A DNA stretch of 57,611 nucleotides, taken from a virus. The stretch spans positions 6,265-63,875 of the IMG/VR virus record IMGVR_UViG_3300029448_000020. One strand, given 5' to 3'. Shown here piece after piece: positions 841 through 19,251 of the stretch. Position numbers and translations under genes: made by a program. The notes under the pieces are model-generated. The model searched no databases and was not told the origin of the DNA. It was given only the letters and a program-made list of their open reading frames with translations. How positions within the stretch are numbered: the first letter of the stretch is position 1; the number at the start of each line of letters is the position of its first letter.

Positions 841-869
841 AAGGGAGCTTAACGGCTCCCTTTTTTTTT
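841..869. terminator. Bidirectional intrinsic terminator between converging modules
   Basis: AAGGGAGC (841-848) pairs with GCTCCCTT (855-862) around a TTAACG loop. A run of T follows on the plus strand (861-869), and on the minus strand the hairpin is followed by TTATTATTTT. It therefore serves both the rightward histone transcript and the leftward late transcript, and marks the point where they converge. Confidence 0.85.
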
Positions 870-1218
870 AAGTATATCTTTTCATTTTCCTATCTATTTG
901 CTTATTTCTTTTTTTATCAGATATTTCAACTCTTCTAGTTTCTCTCCAACCTGCTCCTGGTTTTGCTTTTTCTACAATTTTATAACCATCTTTGTATATT
1001 ATTCTTCTACCACGTTGATCTTTTGTTTTAGCTCCAGACGTAAATACATGGTCCGCTGTACCTTGTTTTTCTGTATAAACATCTTTGTCATAAATTTTTC
1101 TAGGCTCTTTGCTGCCTTTAGCCTTTTCTGCGTGTGATGGTTGAACTGTGGCATCAGATGTGAAAGGACTCCATCCTTTCATTTTAAAACCTTTTGTGTC
1201 TTTTTTAAAATCCGGCAT
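868..1218 (-). CDS. Small basic tag-bearing protein, probable virion component
   Basis: A 116-residue, strongly basic protein of unknown function and the last gene of the leftward late module. Residues 11-20 (FKMKGWSPFT) carry the sequence tag that recurs near the N-terminus of many small proteins here. Its first residues, MPDFKKDTKGF, match the start of the protein at 47770-48246 (MPTFKKDTDGF), so the two share a longer leader. The rest is K/R-rich with no recognisable domain. Its place in a run of virion-type genes suggests a packaged or injected protein; this is inference. Confidence 0.7.
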   Translation of the reverse strand: MPDFKKDTKGFKMKGWSPFTSDATVQPSHAEKAKGSKEPRKIYDKDVYTEKQGTADHVFTSGAKTKDQRGRRIIYKDGYKIVEKAKPGAGWRETRRVEISDKKRNKQIDRKMKRYT

Positions 1219-1967: not shown

Positions 1968-2308
1968 TTTCTTAAGTATTTTATTTCGTCTTTCATTTCA
2001 TCTACTTCCTTTATTACCGCATCGATTTTATTTCTAGCCATTTGATCCTTCATGTTAAACTCCATACGGGTTGGAGGCCAAGTATTAGTGGCCGCTGGAT
2101 CACCCATGTCAATAGTGTATATACCAGTACCTGGTTTAGGTAACTCTAAAGCTCTTTGTACTTTTATTTCTAAGTCATCAAACTTAGAATTGATTGTTGC
2201 CATTAAACCAAAGTAAGCAGAAACAACTGTAACAACAGCTGCAACTATACTAATTAAGGTTTTTACACTAACTTGAAATTTACTGTTTTCTGATAATTCT
2301 TTAGTCAT
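1964..2308 (-). CDS. Membrane-anchored coiled-coil protein
   Basis: A 114-residue protein with one clear transmembrane segment (about residues 15-38, TLISIVAAVVTVVSAYFGLM) followed by a predominantly charged, coiled-coil-like C-terminus. A short conserved-looking linker contains DMGDPAATNTWPPTR. The topology resembles i-spanins and small phage envelope proteins, so a lysis accessory role is possible, but no specific family is recognised. It overlaps genes on both sides by 4 and 8 bases, within the envelope-protein cluster. Confidence 0.6.
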   Translation of the reverse strand: MTKELSENSKFQVSVKTLISIVAAVVTVVSAYFGLMATINSKFDDLEIKVQRALELPKPGTGIYTIDMGDPAATNTWPPTRMEFNMKDQMARNKIDAVIKEVDEMKDEIKYLRK

Positions 2309-3218
2309 TGCTATTATAATAAATTTTACCGTTTTCTATATATAATCCTTGCCTCACTTTAATTGCCTGCCCTTGTAGATTATATATTACACTATTTTCG
2401 CTCGATTTATCCACTACCTCTTGAATACCACTACTACATGGTAAGCCAGTATCACAATCAATGTATTCAGTATTTATTATTTCAACGTATTCTATTATTG
2501 AATCAATTACTACTATTTCAACATATTCAGTATTAACTATTGTATCATACTCAACAATAGTATCAGTAACAAAAAATTCTACGTATTCAATTTCTGTTTC
2601 TACAATAGTATCATAAACAATAACCTCAACCTCCTCTATAACATCTACAAACAAAGTATCTAAAACTTCAGCATATAACGTGTCAGTCACATATATATAT
2701 TCAGGAACTAATACTTCTACTTCTTCTACTACAGTATCAACAACAATCTGTGTTATATATTCAGTATTGTATATCGTGTCAAACTGAACATCAACTATCG
2801 TATCAATTACGATGTTTGTAATGAATTCAGTTTCAACAATTGTATCAAACTGTATAATTGTTTCATAAACATAAAACGGGACTTCTAATGTGTCTGTTTC
2901 ATATATATATTCTATTACTGGTACATCAACATAAATAGTGTCACAACTTTCTTCTCCATAACTACCACAATCTGCCATTGTAGTTGGTACTGCCTCCGCT
3001 TCATCAGAAGCGTCAACACAATCATCCCACCCGTCATTCAAATAAAAAAGATCTTGATATCCATTTGGAACACAACCGTTTGGTGAGTACTGTGTCCAGT
3101 TCGCTGGATCGTCTCCACAATAAAATCCATTTTGTTCTACACATTGTTCACATAAACTTAAGTCTTGTGCAAAAGTTAATGAACTTAAAAATATAAATAG
3201 TGATAATAGTTTTTTCAT
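2301..3218 (-). CDS. Secreted LDLa-like, beta-repeat protein with a T9SS-like C-terminal tail
   Basis: A 305-residue acidic protein. It starts with a signal peptide (MKKLLSLFIFLSSLTFAQ). A Cys-rich segment (about 22-85) ends in NDGWDDCVDASDE, the calcium-cage pattern of LDL-receptor class A repeats. Residues about 90-260 are a run of degenerate strands built on D-T-[IV] units (DTIVETE, DTIYNTEYI, DTIVNTEYVE). The last 40 residues, with IYNLQGQ and GLYIENGKIY, resemble the sorting domain that sends Bacteroidota proteins through the type IX secretion system. Taken together, it is predicted to be displayed on the infected host surface. A virion adhesin is the alternative. Confidence 0.7.
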   Translation of the reverse strand: MKKLLSLFIFLSSLTFAQDLSLCEQCVEQNGFYCGDDPANWTQYSPNGCVPNGYQDLFYLNDGWDDCVDASDEAEAVPTTMADCGSYGEESCDTIYVDVPVIEYIYETDTLEVPFYVYETIIQFDTIVETEFITNIVIDTIVDVQFDTIYNTEYITQIVVDTVVEEVEVLVPEYIYVTDTLYAEVLDTLFVDVIEEVEVIVYDTIVETEIEYVEFFVTDTIVEYDTIVNTEYVEIVVIDSIIEYVEIINTEYIDCDTGLPCSSGIQEVVDKSSENSVIYNLQGQAIKVRQGLYIENGKIYYNSND

Positions 3219-3427: not shown

Positions 3428-4138
3428 TTACATTAATCCAAATGGCGTTGATATTAGTCCACGTCCTCCTCTAGATGCTTCAGTGGCACCGCTAAGTGCA
3501 TTTCCACCAGCAGATCCTCCACCACCACCAACACCTCCTGTTAACATACCAGTTACACCCGATACGCCTCCTTGTATAGCGCTCCACTTAGCTTGCTCAG
3601 CCGCTGCAGCTTGCTCTTGATAAGCAGCAACATCTTGTTGAGCCATACCTAAAAGCGTTGATTGCTTTTCCATCTCCATCTGTCTAGACATAACTTCACC
3701 TTGTCTTTCTTGATCTTGTATTTGAGCGGCCATATTTCTCTCTGCCATTTGGTTTTGTTGCTCTTGAGCTCCAATTTGCGCGGAAGTTTGTTGTGCTGCT
3801 AATTGTCCTTGACTAGCTAATGACTGAGCTACAGCAGCGATACCAGAACTTCCAGCTGCCTCACTCAATCCACTTAATATGTTTGATTGACTCTGAGCAA
3901 ACTGTTGACTTTGTAGATTATACTGCTGTTGATTAACAGTCAAATCTTCCATCATGTTTTCCATATCTAAATACGGATTACTAGTGTCCAACTGACGATA
4001 CGTATCTTTTAAAGCTTCCATTTCTCTTCTGGCTTTCTTTTCTTTTTTCTCAGCCTTCTTTTTAGCTTTGTTAGCACTGTGTGCTCCTAGCGCGGCACCT
4101 CCAACCGCTATTATACCTCCTACTATAGCAAATGACAT
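3428..4138 (-). CDS. Ejection-type internal virion protein, paralogue A
   Basis: A 236-residue protein. A hydrophobic glycine/alanine segment opens it (AIVGGIIAVGGAALGA, about 4-20). A lysine-rich helix, the motif LDTSNPYLDMENMMEDLTVN (about 50-69) and a long Q/A-rich helix follow, with a glycine-rich tail (GGVGGGGGS). It is clearly homologous to 19266-20057 and, more loosely, to 4141-4710. A membrane-active N-terminus, Q/A-rich helices and small size are typical of podovirus ejection proteins such as T7 gp14. That role is inferred from composition and context. Confidence 0.7.
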   Translation of the reverse strand: MSFAIVGGIIAVGGAALGAHSANKAKKKAEKKEKKARREMEALKDTYRQLDTSNPYLDMENMMEDLTVNQQQYNLQSQQFAQSQSNILSGLSEAAGSSGIAAVAQSLASQGQLAAQQTSAQIGAQEQQNQMAERNMAAQIQDQERQGEVMSRQMEMEKQSTLLGMAQQDVAAYQEQAAAAEQAKWSAIQGGVSGVTGMLTGGVGGGGGSAGGNALSGATEASRGGRGLISTPFGLM

Positions 4139-4140
4139 AA

Positions 4141-4710
4141 TTAAACGTTTTGATTATTAATGGCACCAGTCATGCCAGTTATACCATCTTGAATGGCCTT
4201 CATCTTAACTCTTTCAGATTCTGCTTCTATTTCTCTTTGAGCAGTTAGCTCTTGCTGTGACATACCTAATAAAGTTTCATTTTTATCCATATTGCTTTGT
4301 TGAGACATCATTTCACCTTCAGCTTTTAAATTTTGTATTCTATCTTTAAACTCAGCATTTCTTTTGTTATTTTTAGACTCTTGATCTCCAATGTCAGCCG
4401 ACATTTCTTGTGCCATAATTTTGTTTTCAAAAGCTAATGTGTTTGCTAATTCTGCCGCGCCAGATCCTCCTTGAGTTTCACGCAAAACACTTAGTGCGTT
4501 AGCTGTGTCTTGTTCGTGTTGTGTTTTTCTAGCATCCATTTCTAATAAACTAATCTTAAGATCTTCATATGGATTGTCCATGTGATCATATGGATTACTA
4601 GTATCTAAACTAGCATAAGCCTCTTTATTGGCTTGTAGTTCTTGTTCAGCTTTTTTTAGCTTTTTACCTTTTTTATCAAAAGGTGTCCATCCTTTTTGTT
4701 TGTAAGCCAT
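4141..4710 (-). CDS. Ejection-protein-like paralogue with its N-terminus replaced by the tag
   Basis: A 189-residue relative of its neighbour 3428-4138. It shares LDTSNPYDHMDNPYEDL, a GSGAAELANTLA segment, a coiled coil and the ETLLGMSQQELTA region. In place of the hydrophobic N-terminus of its paralogues it begins MAYKQKGWTPFDKKGKK, the module-wide tag. It therefore shows the tag to be a separable unit. It probably arose by tandem duplication. Lacking a membrane segment, it may be a soluble internal protein. Confidence 0.7.
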   Translation of the reverse strand: MAYKQKGWTPFDKKGKKLKKAEQELQANKEAYASLDTSNPYDHMDNPYEDLKISLLEMDARKTQHEQDTANALSVLRETQGGSGAAELANTLAFENKIMAQEMSADIGDQESKNNKRNAEFKDRIQNLKAEGEMMSQQSNMDKNETLLGMSQQELTAQREIEAESERVKMKAIQDGITGMTGAINNQNV

Positions 4711-4712
4711 AA

Positions 4713-5756
4713 TTAAAATATTAAATAATTAAATCCAAATTTTGTTTCAAATAATTCTTTGCCCCAGTATTTCATGTGTGTTCCTTCTACAAATAAACCT
4801 AAGTGTTTTGTTATTCTTGTCCCAAATACTAAACCACCATCCCATTCAATCTTGCTGTCTCCATACTCATAAGAATATTTATCTAAACCATAATGATATG
4901 GCAGACAATTAAACCAAGCATGTACCCACGTCGTAGGAGTATATTTATAATAAGCCAAGCCAATTACCGCACTAAGTTCTCTTTGTAAACCTAATTTATC
5001 AAGTTCACGTTCGTTGAAACTAGCTACTGCGTCACCGAAGTAGTGGTGGAAAAACTCGTCGTTTGAGGTAGCGATAAGTACGGAATCTCCACCACTAACA
5101 TCGTACCAATTTTGATTAACATAATTTCCTTGAATCCACATCTCTGGAGCGTAGCCAAAGTCTTCAGCTAAATCTTGAAACGTTGATTCACCTGGAACCC
5201 AAAAATCTTCTATAGGATTTACTCCATACACTGGATGTATTCTAGCTACAGCTCCAACTGTTAAATCCCAATTACCTTTATTTATTCTAAACCTAGTATC
5301 AAAAGACATAAACTTTAAGTTTACTCTTTGATTATCTGTATACTGAGCTTTTGTCACACAACTATTACCTAAATATCTTAACCAAAAGTTTTGCTCTGTA
5401 AACTCATCACTCCTATTTCTTATAAATGAATAGTTAAAAAGATATTCCCAACCAACAGCATTACCAATAGTAACATTGTCAGCTATATTATCTTCAGTTC
5501 CATAATACCAAGTTTTAACTTTATGTTCATAGTCAAATCTAGCTATTTTACGTAAACCTATAGTTAAATTATAATCGTAAGGATTAATCCATGTAACATC
5601 TTCGTAACCTTTATCAATAGCTACATAATCTTCTCTTTCAGTCATAGACGTTCCCATTGTCATCGATGTATAAAATGTAGAATATTTGAAGAAGTCTTTT
5701 ATTTGTGCGTTACCTATTGTACTAATAAGTACAAATAATAAAATTAATTTTTTCAT
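4713..5756 (-). CDS. Predicted outer-membrane beta-barrel protein
   Basis: A 347-residue protein with a canonical signal peptide (MKKLILLFVLISTIGNAQ). The mature part is a series of alternating aromatic/polar strands such as YNLTIGLRKIARFDYEH, NFWLRYLG and WDLTVGAVARIH. It ends in a strand with a terminal aromatic residue (FGFNYLIF), the signature recognised by the Bam machinery. No enzymatic motif is seen. A phage-encoded outer-membrane protein could alter receptor exposure, block superinfection, or be a contractile-free tail tip part. The specific family is not recognised. Confidence 0.65.
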   Translation of the reverse strand: MKKLILLFVLISTIGNAQIKDFFKYSTFYTSMTMGTSMTEREDYVAIDKGYEDVTWINPYDYNLTIGLRKIARFDYEHKVKTWYYGTEDNIADNVTIGNAVGWEYLFNYSFIRNRSDEFTEQNFWLRYLGNSCVTKAQYTDNQRVNLKFMSFDTRFRINKGNWDLTVGAVARIHPVYGVNPIEDFWVPGESTFQDLAEDFGYAPEMWIQGNYVNQNWYDVSGGDSVLIATSNDEFFHHYFGDAVASFNERELDKLGLQRELSAVIGLAYYKYTPTTWVHAWFNCLPYHYGLDKYSYEYGDSKIEWDGGLVFGTRITKHLGLFVEGTHMKYWGKELFETKFGFNYLIF

Positions 5757-6047
5757 TTATGTTCTTGATTTAATTTCTTTTCTTAAATTAGCTATTCTTT
5801 GTTCATATCTTTTAACAGCTGATTTATCACCTCTTTCTCTAGCTTCTGCTAATTCATTATCCATTATACCATATATTTCACCTTCCAATCTAGCTATACT
5901 CATCTTTTGTCTTTTAGTTTGAGGAGTCATGTCTGGGTGAGTGTGATGTCCTTTTTTAGTAGGATCTTTATAACCTCTAGTTTTTGTTTGAGGTTCATAT
6001 TCTTTTTTCTTAGTATATGGGCTGTAGCCCGCCATTTTAAATGCCAT
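5757..6047 (-). CDS. Tag-bearing coiled-coil protein
   Basis: A 96-residue basic protein starting MAFKMAGYSPYTKKK, a clean copy of the tag. A linker rich in K, T and P follows (EPQTKTRGYKDPTKKGHHTHPD), and then a helix with coiled-coil character (about residues 45-96). Function unknown; it sits between the barrel and the DUF5675 gene with 0-2 base gaps. Confidence 0.65.
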   Translation of the reverse strand: MAFKMAGYSPYTKKKEYEPQTKTRGYKDPTKKGHHTHPDMTPQTKRQKMSIARLEGEIYGIMDNELAEARERGDKSAVKRYEQRIANLRKEIKSRT

Positions 6048-6049
6048 AA

Positions 6050-6547
6050 TTATATAGTTTTATATGTTATTGTTACCTGTTCTTCACATTCAATAGCTTC
6101 AGCTATTCTTGAATAAATTCTTCTATATGCTTGAGTCGATTTTCCTATAAAACCGTTCTTCTTGATTTTGTTGTTTTCTTGGGAGTCTCCGACGAGCAAG
6201 CAACCCGCTGTATGTTCGTCAGTATTTCCACAATGAATGAGAATATGCTCAAAATTAGGAACGTCAAGAACGTGAAGCATACCAATATGAAAATCAGAAA
6301 AACGCTTAGAATACTTTGAGTGAAATCCACCCTCTTTTCTAAGAGCAAGTTTATACGTTCCATTAGGTATTCTAGTTTCTCCATATACTTTTTCTTCTCT
6401 ATATTCATCTTCAAGTGTATAAGCTAAAAATGTTCTTTTACATCTATAACCTTCTGAATGTGGTGCTGGTGACAACCTGTCTACTTCGAATAATATACCA
6501 TTTGTACTATCAGTACCACTACTTATTCTAATTACTTCTAATTCCAT
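6050..6547 (-). CDS. DUF5675 family protein, candidate peptidoglycan-acting lysis protein
   Basis: A 165-residue protein with the layout of the DUF5675 family: an N-terminal strand region (TLEDEYREEKVYGETRIPNGTYKL) and then FHIGMLHVLDVPNFEHILIHCGNTDEHTAGCLLVG (about 87-120). The H-x-GN...GC arrangement (HCGN 105-108, GC 115-116) recalls the catalytic layout of L,D-transpeptidase-like enzymes. The family is common in Bacteroidota phages and is suspected to act on the cell wall. No other endolysin is visible in the window, so this is the best lysis-enzyme candidate; activity is inferred. Confidence 0.7.
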   Translation of the reverse strand: MELEVIRISSGTDSTNGILFEVDRLSPAPHSEGYRCKRTFLAYTLEDEYREEKVYGETRIPNGTYKLALRKEGGFHSKYSKRFSDFHIGMLHVLDVPNFEHILIHCGNTDEHTAGCLLVGDSQENNKIKKNGFIGKSTQAYRRIYSRIAEAIECEEQVTITYKTI

Positions 6548-6846: not shown

Positions 6847-8379
6847 TTATGTTGTTTTTGTTATACTTATATATCCCCCATGAAGTATATCAGTAGTATC
6901 GCCAGGGTTCCACTCTATTATCACAGTTACAGCGCCATTCCCGTCCACGTCATTTGCTCCAAAATCATGAGTAACAGTTCCACTACTAAACGTACTAGCC
7001 GTAGCTAATGCAGATGACATAGCGGCAATAGTAGATCCCGAGTGGCATCTTATAGTACCATCATTGTCCACATCTGTAGCAAACATGGTACACGCGGTCG
7101 CTGTATATCCATTAGGTATAATAACTTCACAGTAAGCGTTAACACTAGCGCTAGGCATCGTTATTCCACCACCAACTAAACTATACTGTGGATGAAATCT
7201 ATAACTATTAGCTAAAAATTCTGTTGGTGATATAGGTATTTTACCATCTTGAATAGTGCCTATATTACTTCCTCTATATAATCCAGTTGTATTAATATAA
7301 TTAGTTGTAGCACCAACTTCTAATTCTATATTTGCCGCAGAATCTAATGTTACAGTTGATCCTGCGACTTCGGCGGTACCAACCGCGGTTATTGTTGTTG
7401 CTGCAGAGGAATCAACATTTAAAACACCAGCATCTATGTTTACCACATTGTCTGTGTCCGCGTCTGCGTCTAAATGAAATACGTCACCAGATATATCGGC
7501 CGGAGTTATAACAACTTTACCATCTGGATCTAGTGTTAAGTCAGCAGCGGTTGCATCGTCATCAACTGTAGTTAAAGTTGTAGCTCCATGTGTTGTTGTT
7601 GATATAGAAAAATAATCTCCCGTATCAGCAGAACTCATACATTTTACATCTATTCCACCATCGGTAACTTTAGTTGTTAGCCCTATGTTTGTATCACCAC
7701 CAGTAGCAATAATATTAATTCCTTCAGCGGTAGTTGTTCCCGCATCACTAACAAAGCTACTTTGAACTTGTATTCCAGTTAGTGTGTTAGTTGCGTTAGC
7801 GTGATTAGTAGCAACGTCAATTAGTGCTAAGTTGTGACCAATAACGCTTCGCGTATTACCATCACCTATTACACCAGTTTTTGAATAAGCGGTTTTTATC
7901 AAACCATTACCAGTTACACTTGCTGTGCCAGCATCTGTTTGTGCTAAATCTATAAAACTACCTGTTGTTATAGCGTTTGCTACTACCTTAATAGCATCTC
8001 CCGTTGTTAAACTATTAGCCGTTAAGTCAAAAACATCAGCAGTAGTTGCAGATGTTGCTAATTCTATACCTATAGTAGAGGTCATGTTAATTAGGCCAGC
8101 TAAAGTAAGTGTTGTTCCATCAAAAGTAAGATTGCTTTCACCTATAATAGCGGCTGACCCATCGGCAGCACCAGTTGCTGTAACCACTCTATTATCTGCG
8201 GCATTATCTAAAAAATCGCTAGTATCAATAACTATTGTGCTTTGATTCTTTTTACTAACTTTACCGTCAGAATCAACAACTAATAACTCGGCCTCTGATG
8301 TTGTAGATAGGTTTTCTAAATACACATCATTACGAAATCTAGATATAAAATCCCATATGTGTTGACCTATCCATTTCAT
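6847..8379 (-). CDS. Tail fibre protein
   Basis: A 510-residue protein. The N-terminus MKWIGQHIWDFISRFRNDVYLE is a recurring start of marine-phage fibre proteins and probably anchors it to the tail. The middle (about 50-380) is a long low-complexity array of T/A/D-rich strands (LTANSLTTGDAIKVVANAITTG, VTDGGIDVKCMSSADTGD) typical of trimeric beta-structured fibres. The C-terminus (about 385-510) is less repetitive and may hold the receptor-binding head. A chaperone domain is not obvious. Confidence 0.8.
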   Translation of the reverse strand: MKWIGQHIWDFISRFRNDVYLENLSTTSEAELLVVDSDGKVSKKNQSTIVIDTSDFLDNAADNRVVTATGAADGSAAIIGESNLTFDGTTLTLAGLINMTSTIGIELATSATTADVFDLTANSLTTGDAIKVVANAITTGSFIDLAQTDAGTASVTGNGLIKTAYSKTGVIGDGNTRSVIGHNLALIDVATNHANATNTLTGIQVQSSFVSDAGTTTAEGINIIATGGDTNIGLTTKVTDGGIDVKCMSSADTGDYFSISTTTHGATTLTTVDDDATAADLTLDPDGKVVITPADISGDVFHLDADADTDNVVNIDAGVLNVDSSAATTITAVGTAEVAGSTVTLDSAANIELEVGATTNYINTTGLYRGSNIGTIQDGKIPISPTEFLANSYRFHPQYSLVGGGITMPSASVNAYCEVIIPNGYTATACTMFATDVDNDGTIRCHSGSTIAAMSSALATASTFSSGTVTHDFGANDVDGNGAVTVIIEWNPGDTTDILHGGYISITKTT

Positions 8380-8380
8380 T

Positions 8381-8704
8381 TTATTGAGAGTCTTTCAAGT
8401 CTTGAGCCGATGGTGCACCTTCACTTCCTGGTTTTCTCATTTTTTCACCTGATCCAGCTTTTATTCTTTTTCTTTTTGCGTGTATATTGTCCCATAAACC
8501 CTTTTTCTTTTTCATGGCTGACTCAGCCTTACTAGCATATATAGCCTTACGTTGTGCGTCAGACTTATATTTTTTCATAGGACTATCTTTCATTTCATCA
8601 ATGTGCTCTTCAATGATTTCAGCCTGCTTGCCATGAGCTTTAACTGCACTTTTTAATTGATCTACAACTTCTTGTAAATCTTTGTATTTCATTTTAAATG
8701 CCAT
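8381..8704 (-). CDS. Basic virion-type protein with tag start, DSPMKK and NIHAKRKR motifs
   Basis: A 107-residue protein. It starts MAFKMKYKD, the first half of the tag. At about residue 40 comes DSPMKKYKSDAQRKAIYASK. The C-terminal third, GLWDNIHAKRKRIKAGSGEK with a following RKPGSEGAPS, is a module found in many small marine-phage proteins. The three motifs in one short protein link the tag family with the SPM family. Function unknown. Confidence 0.7.
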   Translation of the reverse strand: MAFKMKYKDLQEVVDQLKSAVKAHGKQAEIIEEHIDEMKDSPMKKYKSDAQRKAIYASKAESAMKKKKGLWDNIHAKRKRIKAGSGEKMRKPGSEGAPSAQDLKDSQ

Positions 8705-8709
8705 AATTT

Positions 8710-8892
8710 TTATATTTCAAATCCAAAGTTTAGAATCATAAATCTAAATCTTTTACAACTCTTTTTTTTATTTTCACAAACCCAACAAGGGCAAAACATT
8801 AGTTCAAACACTGTTAGTGTGCTTATTCTAAATGTTAATTCATATTTATCTTTTTTGTTTCCTGATGTCCAGGAATTAATCCAATTTATCAT
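8710..8892 (-). CDS. Small protein with a CPCxxC motif
   Basis: A 60-residue protein with strand-like hydrophobic stretches (YELTFRISTLTVFELMF) followed by CPCWVCENKKKSC and the closing FRFMILNFGFEI. The clustered cysteines could bind metal or form disulfides. A neighbouring 28-residue ORF (8896-8982) has a similar CPCPMC, suggesting related functions. No family recognised. Confidence 0.5.
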   Translation of the reverse strand: MINWINSWTSGNKKDKYELTFRISTLTVFELMFCPCWVCENKKKSCKRFRFMILNFGFEI

Positions 8893-8895
8893 AAT

Positions 8896-8982
8896 TTATT
8901 TTTTTATTATTTTAAAAATTACTAAACCAACTATTGCAGCTGTTGTGCACATAGGACAAGGGCATATAACTAACATTTCCAT
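8896..8982 (-). CDS. 28-residue membrane peptide with a CPCPMC motif
   Basis: The ORF reads MEMLVICPCPMC, then a hydrophobic helix (TTAAIVGLVIFKIIKK), then TAA. Its ATG overlaps the final codons of the upstream gene (8970-9260), an arrangement typical of coupled translation. The next gene starts only 3 bases after its stop. Four of its first twelve residues are C or P in CPCPMC, echoing CPCWVC in that next gene. The exact fit between genes makes it likely real. Confidence 0.5.
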   Translation of the reverse strand: MEMLVICPCPMCTTAAIVGLVIFKIIKK

Positions 8983-9260
8983 CTACGCCTAGCAGCTTTA
9001 CCTCTTTCACCAGTCCAACCTCTTGATCTAGCGCAAAACGATTTTCTACGTTTAGCAGCTTTACTACCTGGTTTAACATCACCAGTCACAGCTGTTTTCA
9101 GCTTGCTACCTGGATTTTTACGTTTATATGTTTCAACGCCCTTCTTTGTCATACCGGCGCCTTCTTCAACTGTTCTGAAGTTTCTACCTTTACCTTTTGT
9201 AGTTTTTCTAGGTTCATTGTCCTTGGTAAATGGAGTAAACCCTTTTTGTATATAAGCCAT
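8970..9260 (-). CDS. Tag-bearing DUF6321-like protein
   Basis: A 96-residue very basic protein. It starts MAYIQKGFTPFTKDNEP (the tag). From about residue 34 on, GAGMTKKGVETYKRKNPGSK, KPGSKAAKRRKSFCARSRGW and the closing ARRRWKC match a small domain seen in cyanophage and marine-phage proteins (I believe DUF6321). Here the tag is fused to a known small phage domain, which again supports a modular signal. Function unknown; DNA binding is plausible from charge. Confidence 0.7.
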   Translation of the reverse strand: MAYIQKGFTPFTKDNEPRKTTKGKGRNFRTVEEGAGMTKKGVETYKRKNPGSKLKTAVTGDVKPGSKAAKRRKSFCARSRGWTGERGKAARRRWKC

Positions 9261-9279
9261 AATTTATATTATTACATGT

Positions 9280-12200
9280 TTATTGATGAGCATAACATTT
9301 CTTGTTTTTATTCTCAGTCTTGTTGTTACATCGTTGACCATTAGTTTTTATAGCTGTACATCTATATTCTTTTATGCCGTCATTGTCTCTATCCATACCA
9401 TCTTTAAAATCCATATGATGTATGCACTTCCAGGTTTTAGCTTTAGTTTCTGTTGTTAAGCTACATCTTTGACCATTTGATCTAATACCAGAGCATTGCA
9501 CGGTTTTTATTCCTTCTTTCTTTTTTCTTTCATCTTCAGCTTTTTTATCTTCTGCTTTTCGTTTTTCTTTTTCTATTTTTTGACTTTCCCTTCTTTCTTT
9601 TTTAGCATCAGCTTTTGCTCGCTCTAGTTCTTCGTCTTTAACACCAAGACTCCACATACTCCAACCAGTAGACAAAGCAACACGCTTCCAAAGATCATGA
9701 TTACCCGTTATTGCCTCTTCTAGGTTATTCATCTTATGTTGTATTCTAGCCATAGGAAAGTTAGTTAAACCTTCTACTAAACTACTAGCTATAGATAGAT
9801 TAGGATTCTCTATTCTAAATCCTATTTGTTTACTAACACCTTTATTGTATTTTTCTGATTTTATTGCTTGGTTTAGCTTTCTAAGTTTACTACCCATAGG
9901 TGGAGATAAACTAACAGCCTGTAAAGCTATTCTTATGTCATCTCTTTTGGCCCACGGTTGTTCTGTTTCATATTTCCATTGCTTTAATGTATTTTTTAAT
10001 GCGGCTATAGCGGCACCATAAACACCAGTTCCTCTTAATAAAGTATCTATAGCTCCATCTAAAACTCTTATACCTTGAGTTCTTTTTCTTTCGTCATCTT
10101 CATCATCATCTCCTCCAAATAAGGCAAACGCTAATCCAGATTGTAGAGCACCGAATATTAGATTTTGAACAGCACCATAGTATATAATCTTAGATATGTT
10201 AGTTCTCGTATCACCTCTACCATTTTTAAGATCTAATGCAGCCTTCTTCATTAATCTAGTCATCTGCATTGGTGTGTTTTGAAATGGTAGTATTATTCTA
10301 CCTAATACACCAGCTTGTTGTCCTGATATTAAATCTGGTCTAGATGACTGTTGTGTTTCTTCTGCTATTTCTTGAAAATCTAAAAATGCTTGAGATTCAG
10401 CTTCGGCTTGAGATTTTCCATTTTTGATATAAGTATTTATTCTATTTCTATAAAAACTAGCGCCACCAAAAGATATAGCAAAACTATCCGCTATTCTAGT
10501 TGGTGCAAATCCCTTTTCTAACATCCATCTAATTACAGATTCTACGCTACCTCTACTTTGAGAAAACGCATCAGCTAATTCACTGTGAGCTATATCTATT
10601 TGTGACCCACCTCTTCTTTGTTTTAACATGTCAGAGTTAAATATGGTAGCAAAGTCTTTAGAAAATTGAGGTATGTTAGCAAATGCTTTAGAAGCTTTAA
10701 ATATATTATTATCTCCCCAATTAATAAAGTTAACTGTAGATATTGTTTGTAGCGCTGCAGATCTTACATTAAGAAACATGATTGCTCCAACAGAACCGTT
10801 AACCCAGTTAACAAACTTATTGACTGTCTTATCTTTACCAAGAACTCTATTAGTTCCGTTTTCCATTCTGTATAATATATTCTCTAAAGCATCTCTAAAA
10901 CCAGAACCATGTATAGCCTCTATTTTATTTAAATTATCTTTTGAAAATATTTCATTTTTATTATTTATCCAATCACCTAAAAATTGTTGTCTTCCAATTT
11001 TAACTGTATTAAATAAATCACTAGCTATACTTTCAACCATCCAAAATTCACTAGGTTGAGTGTAACCATCTTGAGCGCGAGATATAATACCTAATGTTTC
11101 AGCAAAGTTTATTAAATCAGCGTTTTTATTAACGTGACTTAATAGTTTCTTTTTTGTTGTTTCAGCCATACCTGGTATTTCCATACCGTTTTTATTCCAT
11201 AAATATGTTCTTATAGCTGTATCAACAGTAAAGCTTGTTCCAGGTACTTTATCATCTAGTGTTTTTACTAATTTAGGATTTCTTTTTTTCAATGCAGAAT
11301 ACTCATTAGACATGTTTTGCTTGTATGTATTCCAAGTTCTTATACCTTTAGCAAATGGGTCAAATAAATTATCTTTAAACCATTTCATATCTTTGTCTCC
11401 TTGTTTACCTTTACCTAAAAACTTATACATTAAACCTTTGAAGTCTTCAGCTGATGGTGGAACAAAAAGATCCCATTTACCTATACCTTTTCCTCTAACT
11501 ATAGCTTCACCTCTTGAAAATACTTTTTCAAAACCAACACCAGATGTTCTTTCAATCATCTTGTTAAAATCAACACTGTGAGATCCACTTAGTTTAACTT
11601 TAGCTTGCACAACCTTAGATTTGATATCTAGTTGATCTAAGACATTCTTAACAGCTTTTACATTTGGTAAGGCATCATCTACAAAATACATATCATTATA
11701 ACCCTCTGCAAACTTCTCTAACATCCAGTCAGCTTTAGCTTGACCAGTGCTATTACCTAAACCAGTTACATTTTTTATAGGTATATAAACACCTTCACTT
11801 CTTAACCAATCATGAATAGCTTTTTGACTCTCAGGTGCTCTTGCTGTTAATATAAAAACATTATTAGGTCCATACTTTTTAATTTGATTTTTCATCTTTT
11901 GAAGTAATGGTCCTGGTTTACCTTTTGTAACTTTATTAAAATCAGTGAAATCAAAATCCCAACCCTCTTTAGCTAATTGATCACCAACCATTGGCCATTC
12001 ATTTGAAGCTATCTTTTTAGTTTCTTTACCTTTCTTAGCGATTATATAGTTTTCACTTACACCAACTGTCTCATCAAAATCAAATGCAGACATACCTTTA
12101 GTCTTACCAGTTTGACTGTGCTTAACAATATTTTTTTGAGCTTTTATTGCGTTAAAAATATTATTAACTTGAGATTGTGACTTACTCCATTTAATTTTTA

Positions 12201-15200
12201 CAGCAGCTTGTATTCCTTTTATTGCTTTTTGTTTAGTAATTTTACCTGTTAATTGTTTTATTATTAAATCGTTTTGGATAGGTATTAATCTTTCTATTTG
12301 AACGTCAGTTAATTTTTTGACATTAGTACCAACACCAAAGTATTCTGCTATAGTTTGATTAGTACCAACTATTTCTAATTCATTTAAATTAACACCTTGA
12401 ATAGCTAATCTAACTACAGCACCCATCCCATCTTCTAGTTTAAGTTCACCACTAATAACTCTAGGCAGAATATCATCAAACCAAACGTCTGGCGCACCAT
12501 TTTTTAAACCAATTTTTTCACCGTAAATATTTTTGCTACCATCATTAATTAAATTGTCAGCTTCTATAGTTATACTTCCTTGCATCATAGAAGCTCTTAT
12601 ACCAACAAACGCTTTTTCAACATTACCTTCCATAGCAGCAAATAGCAAGGCAGAATGTATTTGATTAGCCGGGTGGTTGTGCTCTTCTCGCATGTTAGCC
12701 TTATAATTAGGCTTTCTTGTTTTTTGATCTATAGTGCGTATTTTATATGGAAAAGACACTCTAACTGTACTACCCATACCAGCGGAACCACCGTCTTGAT
12801 AAAAAGATATAAATAATGCCGCTGCCTCAGGATTTGTTTTTAAAAACTCTTGTATTGCTACAAAATAATCTTTAAGATTATCTAGTTTATTGTCTTCTAC
12901 AGCTTGTTGTTTTTCACTTAAGTTTATTTTTTTAGGTTGTTGTTTTTTATTCTTTAAGTAACCATGTCTAATTAACTTTATTTCGCTTTCAGTTAAAGAA
13001 AATGAGTCTTTGATCATGTTCATAAAAAATTCCTCACTTCCATAAGTAGATCTACTAACACCACCTAATCCAGATTTCATTAAGTAATCTCTAAACTGAG
13101 GGTTTTCTTGTAAGAATTGTATAGTAAATCTTATTTTAGCCTCTATAACTGATTCTCCAGTGTTTTCATCGAATACACCATTATAAGTGGCTTTATCACC
13201 TTCGTATCTAATAAAGCTTTCTAGTTTACCAACTGGTATTTTAGACTTTTTAGACCAATGTTTAACCAAGTCATTGGCACCCATATAAAAACCTTCTTTG
13301 TGTTTTTCACTAAACATAACCTCAGATCGACCTCTACCTATTTCTTTCATAGATGGTTTATCTAATCTTATTTGTTGATTAGCACCTAATGCAGCTAGTT
13401 GGATAACAAACTCTCTTATAGCTCCATCAAACTTAGTGCCTTTACTTGTGGGATTACCATCTTGATCCATTCCAAATAACTTAAAGAAATCTTCATTTGG
13501 CGCACTTTGTATTTTATCAAATCTATTTTTTTGACCTAATGATTTTATTGCTCCTTTACCAACCTCAACTCTCTTACCACTATCTCTATAAAATTCATTA
13601 AGTTTAGTATTAGCCACGCCAGTAGCTCTACCGTCTTCATCTTGAGCTTCAGGTAATATGTCTATTAAATTGTTATCTTTAGCTATTTCAGCTATCTTTT
13701 TTCTAGCAGCGCTTCTTTGTTGTCCATCTAAATCTATGTTTTTAGAAAGCTTATTAACAGGTATACCAAATTCATTACTAAACAACTCTAACACTGGAAC
13801 TAATGGTCCATTTTTAACTAGTGCTTTAGTTTTCTTGTATGATTTTTCTTTTTCTAATTTAGTCAAATCAGCATTGTCAGTAATTTCTTGTATATTATCA
13901 GGTTTTACTCCAACAATTTTAGATACTTTCTTACCATCAACTTGTTTGGTTGCAGCGGTTGATGGTGTAGATTTTTTATCAGCAGCATCAAATCCAGCCT
14001 CCTGCAAAGCATCAAGTGAAAATGAATCTATTTGATCTTTTAGTGATTCTAATATTTGACCATATCTTCTAGGTAGTATATCATTTACGTAAGCGCCAAA
14101 CTCAGGGTTAACACTTGGATCCCATGAGTTAGCTAGTGTTATTAATTGTTCTATAAATCCACTTTGCCAATCTTGTTTTGGTATAGCTTTAGAAATATAA
14201 TTAGGCACACCAGCGTCTCTAAGATTTCTTATTCCAGATTCATAAGCGTTTTTAGCTAGTTTGTTTGCTATAGCTAAATTATTCATGACTAAACCCTCTC
14301 TAATTCTAGGTGTAACAGCGTCTCTTAGGTTTTTTCTATTTATACCCTTTTTATCAGCTTGATCAACAACTTGACCATATAGATTTTTATTTTCATTAAC
14401 TATCTGAACAGTGTTTTTCTTTAAAGCCTCAGACATTTTTGCATCACGAGTCTTAGTGTCCTTACCAACAATAGATTCCATCGTTTTTGTTGTTTCAGCT
14501 ATACTACTTCTACCTATAGCTTTTCTTTCTTTCATTGTTAGAGTACCAGCTTTAATTTTCTTAGCTAGCTGAGTAACAAATGTAACAGCGTCTGTTTCAC
14601 CTTCAAAATTAAAATCAACATCTGATTTAGTTGCTTTTTTAATACCATTTCCAAACATCCAACCCATTAACGCACCTACACCTGTGTTCTTTTCAGATTT
14701 AAGGTCAAATTTTCCTTCAGCTACCAACTCCATGAAAACAGTTAAAGTTTCCTCTGGATCCATTCTACTACCATCGTTTCTAGTTGTATAAGCAACTAAC
14801 ACCTTATGTAGATTTGGATTATGTATTTGAACATGTTGCTCTATTTGTGCTGCCATACCAGCAAAAGCTTCGGGATTACTAGAAAATGCCTCTCCAAATA
14901 TAGTATGACCAAGCTCATGTGTCCTTGTTTCTAGCCTATCATCTTTAGCCATATTTTCTACAACTTGAAGAGAAATAAACTTACCATCTGTAGTAGGTAG
15001 ATTTACACCATGACCACCGTTTTGAATACCTTTGATTGCTTTGTTTTTAGCTTCTTCAGAAACGTTTTCTAAATTACTTATATCTTCTACTGCCTGATTA
15101 ACTGTTTGAGAGTTAATCATTGATTGAGCTAAACCAGTTTTCTTTCTTCTTTCGTTAAAAGCTTGATTTATTTCTTGAGTGTTATATATTATTCTAGCTT

Positions 15201-18171
15201 CTTCTTGTATTTGCTTGTCACTTATGTTAGTCTTACCATCTTGAATTAACTTGTTTTCTGCTTTTTTGAATATGTTGTTTTTTCTATCTATATCAACTTT
15301 GTCTTGACTATTTATAAATCCATTGAATTTATTACCAAAAGCATTTTCATCACGTAGTGCTTCTACTAAGGTTTGGTTTTGTGCAAATTGTTTTTCAAGA
15401 TTATTTAAAGCTTTGTTTTTGGTGTCATTATCCATATTTTTATTGTTGATGATTTTTTCAGCATCAAGTCTTATGGATTGTTGTTTTGTTATTAATTTTA
15501 AATATTGTTCTGTCCACTTGGGTGATAAATTTTTTAACTTCCCTTCTAAATTATCTAATATTTGTTTGTTCTCGTTTTTTAAATCATTAAGTTGTTTTTC
15601 TAAAACTTTTTTAGTTCCAACATCATAATTCATTTCATCTAGATCTTTTTGCAAATCACTTATTTCAGATAAATTATGCCTATACTTTCTACTTGTTTTT
15701 GGATCAGAAAATTGGTTCATAACCAAACCTTTCATAAACGGTGTTCCGCTAAACATATAACCAAACATACCACCACTAAAAGCAGCGTGGCCCATATTTT
15801 CTGTTATTGGTTTACCTGTAAAAATATTCTGCGAACCAGTAGTAAGAACCTCTGACATAGTTTCTAAAGCTGGATCATATAATAATTGTCTTTTACCATT
15901 TTTTATAAAGTGCTGTTTAATGCCATCTAAGCCTTTTAATAAATTACTTTTATTACCATACATAGACTTCCAACCTCTCTTCATAACTGGTAAGGTCAAA
16001 AACCTATCAAACACAACCTCAGCACCACCATATGCCGCACTGGTTATAGCTTTTTTAAACAGCGAGTTCTGTATCATTCCATCACTCTGCTCTTCTTCTT
16101 TTACCATTTCTAACCAGTTTTCTCCAGAACTACTATACCCAAGCATTGGTATACCTATTGTTGGTATAGCTAGCGTGGCAAATATAGCGCCTTGATTAGC
16201 AAACTCTTGAGCAACAAATGTTCCAAAGTTTTCAACACTAAAAGCATCTTCAAATGCTACGTCTTTTTGAAATACATTTCTAGCATCTTGCGTAGCCTTT
16301 TCTACTTGAAGCATGGTTTTGTCTAAACGCCTATCATCAATACCCATTACTGAACCAGTTAATTTATACCCTCCATATGCCGCTTTATTAAAAATATCTA
16401 AAAACCCACTACTTAATGTAGTAACAAATTTTTCTCCATTGTTATAGTTTCTTTGTATAAGGTTATTTTTGTAATCACTATTCTCCATTTTATCAAGCAT
16501 AGGCACCATACTTTCATCATACCATGTTTCATAATCTGTTTCTAGTGTTTTTATTTCATTTAAATTCTTGTTAAAGTTTTCTAAAACTTCTCTAGGAATT
16601 TTTCTACCATCTTTTAATGTTACAGCATAAGATTCATCTTGAAGTCTTGTTAAATCACCCTTGTATTCTTTGTTTATGTCATTAACTTTATTTTCTATTT
16701 GAACTAAATGTTCATTATAAAGTTCTTTAGCTTTTTCAACTAGTTTATCTTGATCTATACCAGGATTTTCTTTTTGAACTTTTCTAACAAAATAGCTAGG
16801 ATCAATTTGCTCTGGCATCCTGCTAGTATAGTGTTCTTCTATTTTTTGAATTTCACTATCCATATCCTCGTCAGTCCAAGACTCGTCACTTGATAGATGC
16901 CACATAGCTGTTGGATCGTTTAAAAAATCTATAACAGGTTTTGCTTCAATGTATTTTCTTTTTATTACGTCTGATTTAGCTTCATTAGCTATTTCAAGAG
17001 ACTTAAGTTCTTTAGCTTCTTTTATATTAGCTAATCTAGCACCAATTTTTATATCGTTAATTGTACCAGTATATGAAGTACCAACTTCACTAGGATCAGC
17101 CTCACCTTTTTTATCTATAAGCAAAGAGCCAATAAAACTATATCCCTCTACATCCTTAGAGTTCATTAGTTCAAACATTTTTTGATCTTGCAACTTATCA
17201 ATGTCTTGCTTAATCATGTTTTGCTTAGCTCTTTCTTTTATTTCATTTTGTTCTGGGTTTTTATTACCCTCAGCTTTAAGTTGATTTTTAGCTAATTTTA
17301 ATTCACTTTCATAAGGTTGAACTTTAGTTGATGTAGTTCTCATCCCATCTCTAGAATAATCGCTAGTAACAAGCTCCGGTTTGAATATATCTACATCGTT
17401 GCCATCGTTGTCTTTGTAATTATATTTAGATTCAATTTCTTTTTTGTCTGCTTCACTTACGTGCAAAGGACCGTCTTTAACAGAAAGTCTTTCATAATCA
17501 CTTATTAATATATTTTGATTTTCTTTAGTTTTTAAAATATCTTCTTGACTTAGATTATTTTTTAAAAACTTAAACAACTCATTTCTTGAGTTTCTTTTTT
17601 TAAGACTAGTGTCAAAATCTGTTTTTTCTTGAAACCTACCTGGACCAAGCCCAACATCAATAACAGTTTCTTTGCCAGTTTCTTTGTGCTTAATTTTTAC
17701 TTTATTTAAATTTTGAGCATCAAAAGTTTTCTCAAACTCAAAAACATTACCATATATAGATTCCATTTGATCTATAAAGTCATCATGATTTTGATCATAT
17801 ATTGTGTTGTCAAGTAGATAATCATAAGCACCATCATGCTTAATAGATTCGTTCTTTATTGTTTGAACATTTTGATTATCAATATCGTTATTTTTTAAAT
17901 CTCTTTGTGATTTTTCCCATTTAATATACTCTGGGCTATCGGAAGGTAGTGATTTAACCATTTCTTCGTACGACTGTACGGTGGTTGGATCTATTTTAGG
18001 ATCAACTTTTATTTCAGTTGATTTTTTTGCTTGTTCTTTTTCTAATTTAATTTGCTTTCGCAATGCGGCTTCTTCTTCTTTGCTATTAACTGTATATTCT
18101 TGACCGTCTATTGTTATCACATAAGAAGTATCGTCTTTTGGCGATTGCTCTTTTTTTGTTTCTTCTGCCAT
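9280..18171 (-). CDS. Giant polyvalent ejection protein (metallopeptidase motif, HAD domain, zinc-knuckle tail)
   Basis: A 2,963-residue protein. The first 1,000 residues are mostly charged helix with one hydrophobic patch (about 670-700). A zincin motif HELGH sits at 1085-1089, followed by MDPEETLTVFMELVAEG. A HAD-type phosphatase region starts FDFDETVG (D2031/D2033) and runs through ILTARAP and YFVDDALPN to about 2180. Residues about 2550-2720 (SRPDLISGQQAGVLGRI, FQNTPMQMTRLMKKAALDL, NGRGDTRTNISKIIYYGAVQ) resemble a large-polyvalent-protein associated module. The end has two C-x9-C-x(10-12)-C-x2-H knuckles (2893-2919, 2938-2962), DUF5763-like. In T7-like phages such giants are ejected with the DNA; that role is inferred. 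Confidence 0.8.
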   Translation of the reverse strand: MAEETKKEQSPKDDTSYVITIDGQEYTVNSKEEEAALRKQIKLEKEQAKKSTEIKVDPKIDPTTVQSYEEMVKSLPSDSPEYIKWEKSQRDLKNNDIDNQNVQTIKNESIKHDGAYDYLLDNTIYDQNHDDFIDQMESIYGNVFEFEKTFDAQNLNKVKIKHKETGKETVIDVGLGPGRFQEKTDFDTSLKKRNSRNELFKFLKNNLSQEDILKTKENQNILISDYERLSVKDGPLHVSEADKKEIESKYNYKDNDGNDVDIFKPELVTSDYSRDGMRTTSTKVQPYESELKLAKNQLKAEGNKNPEQNEIKERAKQNMIKQDIDKLQDQKMFELMNSKDVEGYSFIGSLLIDKKGEADPSEVGTSYTGTINDIKIGARLANIKEAKELKSLEIANEAKSDVIKRKYIEAKPVIDFLNDPTAMWHLSSDESWTDEDMDSEIQKIEEHYTSRMPEQIDPSYFVRKVQKENPGIDQDKLVEKAKELYNEHLVQIENKVNDINKEYKGDLTRLQDESYAVTLKDGRKIPREVLENFNKNLNEIKTLETDYETWYDESMVPMLDKMENSDYKNNLIQRNYNNGEKFVTTLSSGFLDIFNKAAYGGYKLTGSVMGIDDRRLDKTMLQVEKATQDARNVFQKDVAFEDAFSVENFGTFVAQEFANQGAIFATLAIPTIGIPMLGYSSSGENWLEMVKEEEQSDGMIQNSLFKKAITSAAYGGAEVVFDRFLTLPVMKRGWKSMYGNKSNLLKGLDGIKQHFIKNGKRQLLYDPALETMSEVLTTGSQNIFTGKPITENMGHAAFSGGMFGYMFSGTPFMKGLVMNQFSDPKTSRKYRHNLSEISDLQKDLDEMNYDVGTKKVLEKQLNDLKNENKQILDNLEGKLKNLSPKWTEQYLKLITKQQSIRLDAEKIINNKNMDNDTKNKALNNLEKQFAQNQTLVEALRDENAFGNKFNGFINSQDKVDIDRKNNIFKKAENKLIQDGKTNISDKQIQEEARIIYNTQEINQAFNERRKKTGLAQSMINSQTVNQAVEDISNLENVSEEAKNKAIKGIQNGGHGVNLPTTDGKFISLQVVENMAKDDRLETRTHELGHTIFGEAFSSNPEAFAGMAAQIEQHVQIHNPNLHKVLVAYTTRNDGSRMDPEETLTVFMELVAEGKFDLKSEKNTGVGALMGWMFGNGIKKATKSDVDFNFEGETDAVTFVTQLAKKIKAGTLTMKERKAIGRSSIAETTKTMESIVGKDTKTRDAKMSEALKKNTVQIVNENKNLYGQVVDQADKKGINRKNLRDAVTPRIREGLVMNNLAIANKLAKNAYESGIRNLRDAGVPNYISKAIPKQDWQSGFIEQLITLANSWDPSVNPEFGAYVNDILPRRYGQILESLKDQIDSFSLDALQEAGFDAADKKSTPSTAATKQVDGKKVSKIVGVKPDNIQEITDNADLTKLEKEKSYKKTKALVKNGPLVPVLELFSNEFGIPVNKLSKNIDLDGQQRSAARKKIAEIAKDNNLIDILPEAQDEDGRATGVANTKLNEFYRDSGKRVEVGKGAIKSLGQKNRFDKIQSAPNEDFFKLFGMDQDGNPTSKGTKFDGAIREFVIQLAALGANQQIRLDKPSMKEIGRGRSEVMFSEKHKEGFYMGANDLVKHWSKKSKIPVGKLESFIRYEGDKATYNGVFDENTGESVIEAKIRFTIQFLQENPQFRDYLMKSGLGGVSRSTYGSEEFFMNMIKDSFSLTESEIKLIRHGYLKNKKQQPKKINLSEKQQAVEDNKLDNLKDYFVAIQEFLKTNPEAAALFISFYQDGGSAGMGSTVRVSFPYKIRTIDQKTRKPNYKANMREEHNHPANQIHSALLFAAMEGNVEKAFVGIRASMMQGSITIEADNLINDGSKNIYGEKIGLKNGAPDVWFDDILPRVISGELKLEDGMGAVVRLAIQGVNLNELEIVGTNQTIAEYFGVGTNVKKLTDVQIERLIPIQNDLIIKQLTGKITKQKAIKGIQAAVKIKWSKSQSQVNNIFNAIKAQKNIVKHSQTGKTKGMSAFDFDETVGVSENYIIAKKGKETKKIASNEWPMVGDQLAKEGWDFDFTDFNKVTKGKPGPLLQKMKNQIKKYGPNNVFILTARAPESQKAIHDWLRSEGVYIPIKNVTGLGNSTGQAKADWMLEKFAEGYNDMYFVDDALPNVKAVKNVLDQLDIKSKVVQAKVKLSGSHSVDFNKMIERTSGVGFEKVFSRGEAIVRGKGIGKWDLFVPPSAEDFKGLMYKFLGKGKQGDKDMKWFKDNLFDPFAKGIRTWNTYKQNMSNEYSALKKRNPKLVKTLDDKVPGTSFTVDTAIRTYLWNKNGMEIPGMAETTKKKLLSHVNKNADLINFAETLGIISRAQDGYTQPSEFWMVESIASDLFNTVKIGRQQFLGDWINNKNEIFSKDNLNKIEAIHGSGFRDALENILYRMENGTNRVLGKDKTVNKFVNWVNGSVGAIMFLNVRSAALQTISTVNFINWGDNNIFKASKAFANIPQFSKDFATIFNSDMLKQRRGGSQIDIAHSELADAFSQSRGSVESVIRWMLEKGFAPTRIADSFAISFGGASFYRNRINTYIKNGKSQAEAESQAFLDFQEIAEETQQSSRPDLISGQQAGVLGRIILPFQNTPMQMTRLMKKAALDLKNGRGDTRTNISKIIYYGAVQNLIFGALQSGLAFALFGGDDDEDDERKRTQGIRVLDGAIDTLLRGTGVYGAAIAALKNTLKQWKYETEQPWAKRDDIRIALQAVSLSPPMGSKLRKLNQAIKSEKYNKGVSKQIGFRIENPNLSIASSLVEGLTNFPMARIQHKMNNLEEAITGNHDLWKRVALSTGWSMWSLGVKDEELERAKADAKKERRESQKIEKEKRKAEDKKAEDERKKKEGIKTVQCSGIRSNGQRCSLTTETKAKTWKCIHHMDFKDGMDRDNDGIKEYRCTAIKTNGQRCNNKTENKNKKCYAHQ

Positions 18172-18207: not shown

Positions 18208-19251
18208 TTAAGCTAATTTTTCGTTAGAAATGCCTTGCTCTTTTGTTGGATTAGGTCTATTCTTTTTACCCATATTCCATTGTTTTTCTAAAAATGATGT
18301 AAAGTATTCAGCTATTTCATCATCTAGTACACTTTTGTATTCTTTTCTTTCTATAATTGCATCAGCTATTTTCTTTGATTCTTCATAGTTGATACCATCA
18401 TTTGGATTAACACCTTCTAGTTGTAGTCCTAATTTAGCGTATGTATTAGATGATATTTTATCAACAAAATCATTGTAAAATATTCTACCTGCAACCATCT
18501 CATCATAAATTAAAGACTTAGGATTATCTGCTCCATCAATTATATTTCTTTTTACTTGTTGTTTAGCTGCAGCTCTAGGAAAAGACATGTTGTCAGCTGG
18601 ATTAGTTTGAGATGATTTACTTATATAATTATTACCCATTGAGGTAACAGCATCTTTAGTTGCTTTGTCTACTAATTTTATTTTACTTTTTAAATTAGGT
18701 ATAGCAACCCACTCTTCTCCACTACTATCTATAGTCTGAACTAGTTTATTTCTTTCTGTTATGTATTGATCTGCGTACAACTTTTGTGTGTCTATATTAG
18801 CGTTGTTATACTCATCGTCTAGCTTAACTAATGTTTCTTTAGCTATTTCTGCAGACTTAAAGTTAGGCATCATTATCCCTAATTCTTCTTTGTGAGGACA
18901 ATGTTGTTCACCTGGGCAAACTTTTTCTACTAATCTAACTTCATCTTTTAGTAAACGCATAACAGCTTTACCATCGGGTGAATCACTCCACGTGTTCATT
19001 AAAGCTTTTGTGTTGTAAGCTGCGGCAACATCTTGTCTAAAGTTTTTGTAAGCACCAATGTTCTGAGCCCACATATTTAATTGTCTTTTTATTAGACCTC
19101 TTTTAGTTTTGTCACCATCTACATACTCTTGTTTTTTAGCTGCTAAGGATTCAGATATAGCGTTATACTCACCACCTGGTAGTTCACCGTCTGTATCTAG
19201 CACTGTTCTAACAAGTGCATCATGTTCTGGATTTGTTTTTCTATTTAACAT
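18208..19251 (-). CDS. Internal virion or structural protein
   Basis: A 347-residue protein from the ATG at 19251 (MLNRKTNPEHDALVRTV); a longer reading from 19284 would overlap the upstream gene and has an unconvincing start. It is largely helical and charged, with a single Cys cluster (CPGEQHCPHKEE). It lies between the giant polyvalent protein and an ejection-type paralogue, the position of an internal or ejected virion protein in podoviruses. No domain recognised. Confidence 0.65.
   Translation of the reverse strand: MLNRKTNPEHDALVRTVLDTDGELPGGEYNAISESLAAKKQEYVDGDKTKRGLIKRQLNMWAQNIGAYKNFRQDVAAAYNTKALMNTWSDSPDGKAVMRLLKDEVRLVEKVCPGEQHCPHKEELGIMMPNFKSAEIAKETLVKLDDEYNNANIDTQKLYADQYITERNKLVQTIDSSGEEWVAIPNLKSKIKLVDKATKDAVTSMGNNYISKSSQTNPADNMSFPRAAAKQQVKRNIIDGADNPKSLIYDEMVAGRIFYNDFVDKISSNTYAKLGLQLEGVNPNDGINYEESKKIADAIIERKEYKSVLDDEIAEYFTSFLEKQWNMGKKNRPNPTKEQGISNEKLA

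Follow-up and report, generated by a model that had tools for sequence, protein, structure and literature searches.

Three paralogous ejection-like proteins are encoded in this viral DNA. Two begin with a hydrophobic Ala/Gly-rich segment, whereas in the third, P0002, a short basic-aromatic peptide (the tag) stands in its place. We propose that P0002 is a membrane-less ejection-protein paralogue bearing a virion-cargo tag that would resemble a capsid-targeting sequence, a reading that draws on analogy with known phages and to which we give a probability of about 0.47. The window (the whole stretch of DNA analysed) covers 57.6 kb of a 67.2-kb virus record. The three genes, named P0001 (3428-4138), P0002 (4141-4710) and P0003 (19266-20057), all lie on the minus strand, with open-reading-frame boundaries exactly as given in an earlier, sequence-only reading of this DNA.

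3428-4138, minus strand: P0001, second untagged copy, 236 aa, grouping with the second copies of relatives G002 and G003
4061-4138, minus strand: hydrophobic A/G-rich N-terminal segment of P0001 (residues 1-26), from hydropathy
4141-4710, minus strand: P0002, tagged membrane-less paralogue, 189 aa, from homology to P0001 and P0003
4159-4665, minus strand: helical core of P0002 (residues 16-184), homologous to P0001 and P0003
4672-4710, minus strand: N-terminal tag of P0002, MAYKQKGWTPFDK, with residues 1-9 disordered in the model
19266-20057, minus strand: P0003, cassette copy of the ejection-like protein, 263 aa, from BLASTP, tree and AlphaFold model
19980-20057, minus strand: hydrophobic A/G-rich N-terminal segment of P0003 (residues 1-26), from hydropathy

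In BLASTP comparisons, P0001 and P0003 match at 68% over 208 aa, gapless and from the first Met (E 2e-93), and P0002 matches P0001 at 41% over 157 aa (E 1e-30) and P0003 at 44% over 169 aa (E 1e-35). Local alignment scores of P0002 to its paralogues lie 37-38 standard deviations above those of 300 shuffles. This homology spans the whole length of P0002 bar the first ~15 residues, which the tag occupies, and the alignment sets in immediately after the tag, with P0002 residue ~16 corresponding to P0003 residue ~31. The sequence-only reading had claimed that P0002 is homologous to the other two proteins, with the tag where they have a hydrophobic segment, and that LDTSNPY, GSGAA..LA and TLLGMSQQE are common to all three; the BLASTP and shuffle results agree, and the motifs are all seen in the alignment. 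Like the P0003 family, P0002 has a homologous helical core with conserved LDTSNPY, ENTMEDL, GSG and IGxQE motifs. At their N-termini, P0001 and P0003 read MSFA[IL]VG..I.VGGAALGA, contain 11 and 10 Ala/Gly, respectively, among the first 24 residues, and reach best 17-residue hydropathy values of 2.09 and 1.95, compared with -0.96 for P0002, whose N-terminus, MAYKQKGWTPFDKKG, has a net charge of +5. An in-frame stop lies seven codons upstream of the P0002 start with no ATG, GTG or TTG between, which fixes the start; a hidden upstream start supplying an overlooked hydrophobic leader is thus rejected.

Structural comparison, in which a lack of homology between P0002 and the other two proteins would have counted against the earlier reading, gave layouts that agree at an offset of ~15 residues, in AlphaFold models of low confidence. 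Helices span residues 10-34, 47-79 and 85-187 of P0002 (tag disordered; mean pLDDT 64, pTM 0.21) and 15-48, 57-94 and 100-201 of P0003 (mean pLDDT 72, pTM 0.37), and the first helix of the P0003 model, unlike that of P0002, runs on into the hydrophobic part. A PDB fold search with both models gave no match. Given this and the low model confidence, the homology rests on sequence, and the models are consistent with it but add little. A sequence search of solved structures returned nothing significant, Pfam assigned no family to P0002 or P0003, and PHROGs at 0.001 assigned none to any of the three proteins.

P0003 is the first gene of a three-gene cassette, followed by a middle and then a giant protein, both untagged in the window. 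P0001 and P0002 sit ~15 kb from this cassette, within the late block.

9280-18171, minus strand: giant protein, third cassette gene, 2963 aa, placed by gene order as in relatives; no Pfam match
18208-19251, minus strand: middle protein, second cassette gene, 347 aa from its ATG, placed by gene order as in relatives; tagged homologues in G021 and others
20059-20613, minus strand: gene just upstream of the cassette, with an internal tag-like PSPNKF; tagged homologues (MAYKQRSPNKF) in relatives

A trio of small (with hydrophobic N-terminus), middle and giant proteins is common to the uncultured podovirus MW202828, Elemovirus, Cellulophaga phages and Gundel_1, and in cultured podoviruses with the same cassette order the counterpart proteins are annotated as (virion) structural. 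Within a reference set of ~60 proteins, a profile of 121 family members gave weak but significant matches to Gundel_1 gp072 (E 3e-6) and to gp099 of Cellulophaga phage phi38:1 (E 8e-5), both of which occupy the same cassette position and are annotated as structural; unlike P0002, they are untagged, and one copy per genome was seen. From position and build, we infer that the cassette proteins are ejection proteins, and the earlier description of the three proteins as ejection-like paralogues is supported. Cassette order and build recall T7 gp14-gp15-gp16. Like T7 gp14 and its analogues (PMC8954989), the family is small, predicted to be all-helical, equipped with a hydrophobic segment and first in a small-middle-large ejection trio. 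The likeness does not extend to fold matches or to sequence: homology to T7 gp14 is undetectable (hhalign probability 0.2%) and is rejected. All gp14 homologues are described as having a membrane-spanning element (PMC8954989); P0001 and P0003 have such a segment and P0002 does not.

A copy-history tree, built from the core only with N-termini left out, puts P0003 in a group with cassette copies from the relatives G001, G002 and G004 (support 100/91) and P0001 in one with the second copies of G002 and G003 (weaker support, 92/66); the duplication that gave P0001 and P0003 thus probably predates the divergence of these viruses. P0002 sits on an end branch of 1.38, compared with 0.17-0.20 for P0001 and P0003, and its placement is uncertain. 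Between their homologues of 4713-5756 and 2301-3218, G002, G003 and G004 each hold one family gene only, and it is untagged. The long branch and the absence from these syntenic relatives mark P0002, which was found in a single genome, as an extra diverged paralogue rather than a fresh tandem copy. Its origin by recent tandem duplication of P0001 is therefore rejected, and the earlier characterization of the neighboring genes as adjacent duplicates was not borne out. Because P0002 keeps 28 of 38 family-conserved columns, its core is probably still functional. Elsewhere in the family, contig L110 (G031) carries two diverged copies (8628-9422 and 9441-10166) next to each other in the cassette position, with odd N-termini.

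Thirteen window genes are tagged, all of them late and on the minus strand, compared with 0 of 40 early genes (p 4e-4). The variants read M-A-[FY]-K-[MQ]-x-G-[FWY]-[ST]-P-[FY]-[TK], or K-x-S-P-[FL]-x-K, near the N-terminus, and include the following.

868-1218, minus strand: tagged late protein, N-terminal tag MPDFKKDTKGFKMKGWSPFT
5757-6047, minus strand: tagged late protein, N-terminal tag MAFKMAGYSPYTKK
8970-9260, minus strand: tagged late protein, N-terminal tag MAYIQKGFTPFTK, body DUF6321
46818-47150, minus strand: late protein with MTFKSKFFGKSPLLK; by homologue comparison, the same body bears MAFKMKGYSAFTK in G004
47140-47517, minus strand: late protein with MSKFSKKFLKKSPFK and hydrophobic segments
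47519-47764, minus strand: tagged late protein, N-terminal tag MAYEQSGWSPFTK
48265-48666, minus strand: tagged late protein, N-terminal tag MAFKMRGFEAFSR
49059-49922, minus strand: tagged late protein, N-terminal tag MAYKQKGFPKPRKK
49934-50944, minus strand: tagged late protein, N-terminal tag MAFKMKGYGGFHGKK

The tag codons vary at synonymous sites, which argues for selection on the peptide and not for recent copying of DNA. A strong tag (MAYKQKGWSPFTK) and a short tag (KNSPFK) have only ~four residues in common, and we treat them as equivalent because bridging forms join them (MAYKQKSPYKF, MAYKQRSPNKF and MAYKKSSPTKF) and because one can replace the other on the same body. With only ~four residues in the short tag, single calls may be chance, and the case rests on position and counts. 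The DUF6321 body of 8970-9260 bears other tags in relatives (MAYKQSNNPFKK and MAFKMKGWSPYTK), and DUF6321 forms the C-terminal part of large uncharacterised phage proteins in PHROGs. A small late protein at 48685-49056 (minus strand) combines an HExxH motif (KHELKHMND) with a tag-like N-terminus, MAKFKLG..., and its homologues in many relatives begin MGFKLG.. or MAYKLG..; it has no Pfam match and is a possible virion-borne metallopeptidase. Close relatives also place a second, longer N-terminal label, GFKKYDSSYKRxESPFT, on several unrelated late proteins (L104 1566-2651, 4116-4634 and 8554-9366; L105 10521-11216), a form absent from the window.

The strict long-form DNA pattern occurs in 33 stretches in IMG/VR and in none of 84,980 bacterial and archaeal species genomes, giving no host link by that route; a literature search for the tag strings returned nothing relevant. 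All tag-bearing relatives found are uncultured contigs known from sequence alone, and the cultured relatives examined have no tag. The counts that follow use a strict tag rule unless stated; a looser rule, which drops the basic-residue requirement, gives false positives in the beta-rich family w21141. Among 145 non-redundant members of the core family, 126 have a hydrophobic segment without a tag, 12 have both, 2 have a tag only and 5 lack both a tag and a strong segment, so that a hydrophobic N-terminus is found in 138. The two tag-only members are P0002 and L094 of G024. The other 12 of the 14 strictly tagged members carry the tag together with the segment, the tag stands ahead of the segment in 19 of 19 members with both under the looser rule, and the two features are not significantly anticorrelated (p 0.14). 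On the 145-row core tree, tag state changes at least 9 times (12 with the looser rule). Because tag and segment occur together in most tagged members, the tag is, across the sequences compared, an additive module that is often gained and lost and no alternative to the membrane segment. P0002 would therefore have arisen when a tagged protein lost its membrane segment, or with the two events reversed, and not by a standard exchange. Thus, the earlier view of the tag as a transferable N-terminal module stands, given these state changes and the bodies found both with and without it, whereas the proposed exchange for a membrane N-terminus fails as a general rule.

Several ejection proteins illustrate the additive arrangement. 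L007, L083, L119 and L206 have both tag and membrane segment; in G021 the core and middle proteins are both tagged; and the middle ejection proteins L132 and L143 carry MSKKSPLN/K before a body that is untagged in L123 and L145 (54-73% identical). A tagged L065 protein likewise matches an untagged MW202828 protein at 65%. A small DUF5754-like protein (L065 2667-2993; L037 38779-39069; L039 27337-27585) carries a tag in one virus and none in MW202828 or elemoA. In G024, the cassette itself is tagged at two positions.

7921-8775 of G024 (L103): family copy L094, tagged, with a short weakly hydrophobic stretch only; in the cassette position and the only family copy found there
9670 onward of G024 (L103): next large cassette protein, N-terminal tag MSKIKSPLKQ

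Within the first 30 residues, tags occur in 9 of 116 core proteins (0.02% of internal windows), in 15 of 139 middle proteins (0.5% internal), a count that includes three neighbors that are not true middle proteins, and in 7 of 115 genes just upstream of the cassette (1.0% internal). Shell, portal, tail, terminase and GroEL homologues have 0 true tags in 132, compared with 14 of 145 in the core family (p about 1e-4); pattern hits in families w21141 and w23174 are chance matches in beta-rich sequence.

Tags on ejection proteins and diverse small late proteins, and not on the shell, form the pattern expected of a cargo-loading peptide. T4 internal proteins are diverse, with a capsid-targeting sequence as their sole common feature (PMC3012670). 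Here too, a short conserved N-terminal peptide is found on varied, otherwise unrelated late proteins, in 13 window genes and in many IMG/VR records; unlike the T4 signal, it is another peptide and is known here from genes. A T4-type sequence is taken off by a prohead protease. Searches for such an enzyme, backed by working controls, matched neither Peptidase_S78 nor CLP_protease, and a Peptidase_S77 search run without a positive control likewise gave no match. In the mechanism that we favor, the tag would take its bearers into the head during assembly, as the T4 sequence does. P0002 would be a paralogue of a virion ejection protein that is T7-gp14-like in position and build, not in sequence, with the basic-aromatic S/T-P-F tag occupying the place of a lost hydrophobic segment. 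Without the membrane-spanning element described for all gp14 homologues, P0002 should not perform the pore-forming step in the host envelope, and may instead be a partner or soluble cargo. Once packaged, perhaps co-assembling with P0001 and P0003 via the helical core, it could remain part of the internal core or pass into the cell in soluble form. Packaging of ejection proteins does not in general require the tag, since most cassette proteins lack it. Storage of proteins for ejection has a parallel in the Bacteroidota podovirus-like virion of crassvirus phiCrAss001, with cargo proteins gp45 and gp46 (PMC10172136); by contrast, the parts of that account available to us report no N-terminal tag on them.

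The sequence-only reading proposed a true module swap, in which the tag takes the place of the membrane anchor and may direct the same core to a different site, within the virion or outside it. P0002 and L094, with a tag and no hydrophobic segment, have the form that such a swap predicts, but the swap reading fits P0002 alone and not tagged members generally: the tag precedes an intact segment in most of them and the two are not anticorrelated, which makes this explanation rather unlikely. Moreover, because cassette copies have the tag as well as the membrane segment, a destination in the virion appears at least as likely for tag bearers as redirection elsewhere. An unlikely alternative to cargo loading is that the tag works once ejection has taken place, or within the cell, by binding to the phage chaperonin, DNA or some host component, and that P0002 is an intracellular factor and not cargo. 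The basic and aromatic tag, the many small, basic tagged bodies and the presence of phage GroEL and GroES would suit such a role. However, tags occur on ejection-cassette proteins and on late genes only, and GroEL is also encoded by tag-less MW202828 and elemoA, so the tag does not track GroEL, which is rejected as its partner.

P0002 might also be a decaying or neutral duplicate with an incidental tag, as its long branch and its absence from three syntenic relatives would allow. We regard this as improbable, since the reading frame is intact, the family-conserved columns are largely kept and the P0002 tag matches other window tags although their codons differ. Extending the cargo reading beyond P0002, we tentatively suggest, at rather less than even odds, that the tag is an undescribed capsid-targeting sequence with which a wide group of uncultured podoviruses, whose hosts are probably Bacteroidota, load a varying repertoire of small proteins and ejection proteins into the head, and that P0002 is an ejection protein that, having lost its membrane segment, became soluble, tag-loaded cargo. 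Should the tag prove to be a packaging signal, it would show which proteins these phages bring into Bacteroidota hosts, most of them without a recognised family, and would serve as a short marker by which virion cargo could be found and tested from sequence alone. Paralogues with and without the membrane segment would also constitute a natural experiment on the helical core of podoviral ejection proteins acting by itself.

By terminase comparison, the source virus is an uncultured podovirus-like virus related to Elemovirus, Pachyviridae and Pervagoviridae. Its terminase best matches that of MW202828 (63%), followed by Flavobacterium Elemovirus phages (44.5%), Cellulophaga phages of the Pachyviridae and Pervagoviridae (38%) and Tenacibaculum phage Gundel_1 (31%). 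Membership in Crassvirales, first suspected from profile hits, is rejected: the match to a crAss-like record reaches just 23% across two thirds of its length, far below the 31-45% seen with Elemovirus, Pervagoviridae and Pachyviridae. Three further minus-strand features of the window deserve mention. The phage GroES and GroEL genes (44962-46771) lie in the late region and adjoin the second cluster of tagged genes. The protein at 6050-6547 is a DUF5675 protein with a ~13-residue insertion relative to its relatives. Finally, the product of 1569-1967, which is kept in syntenic relatives, has a thioredoxin domain (Pfam PF00085, E 6e-8) behind a predicted secreted/lipoprotein leader.
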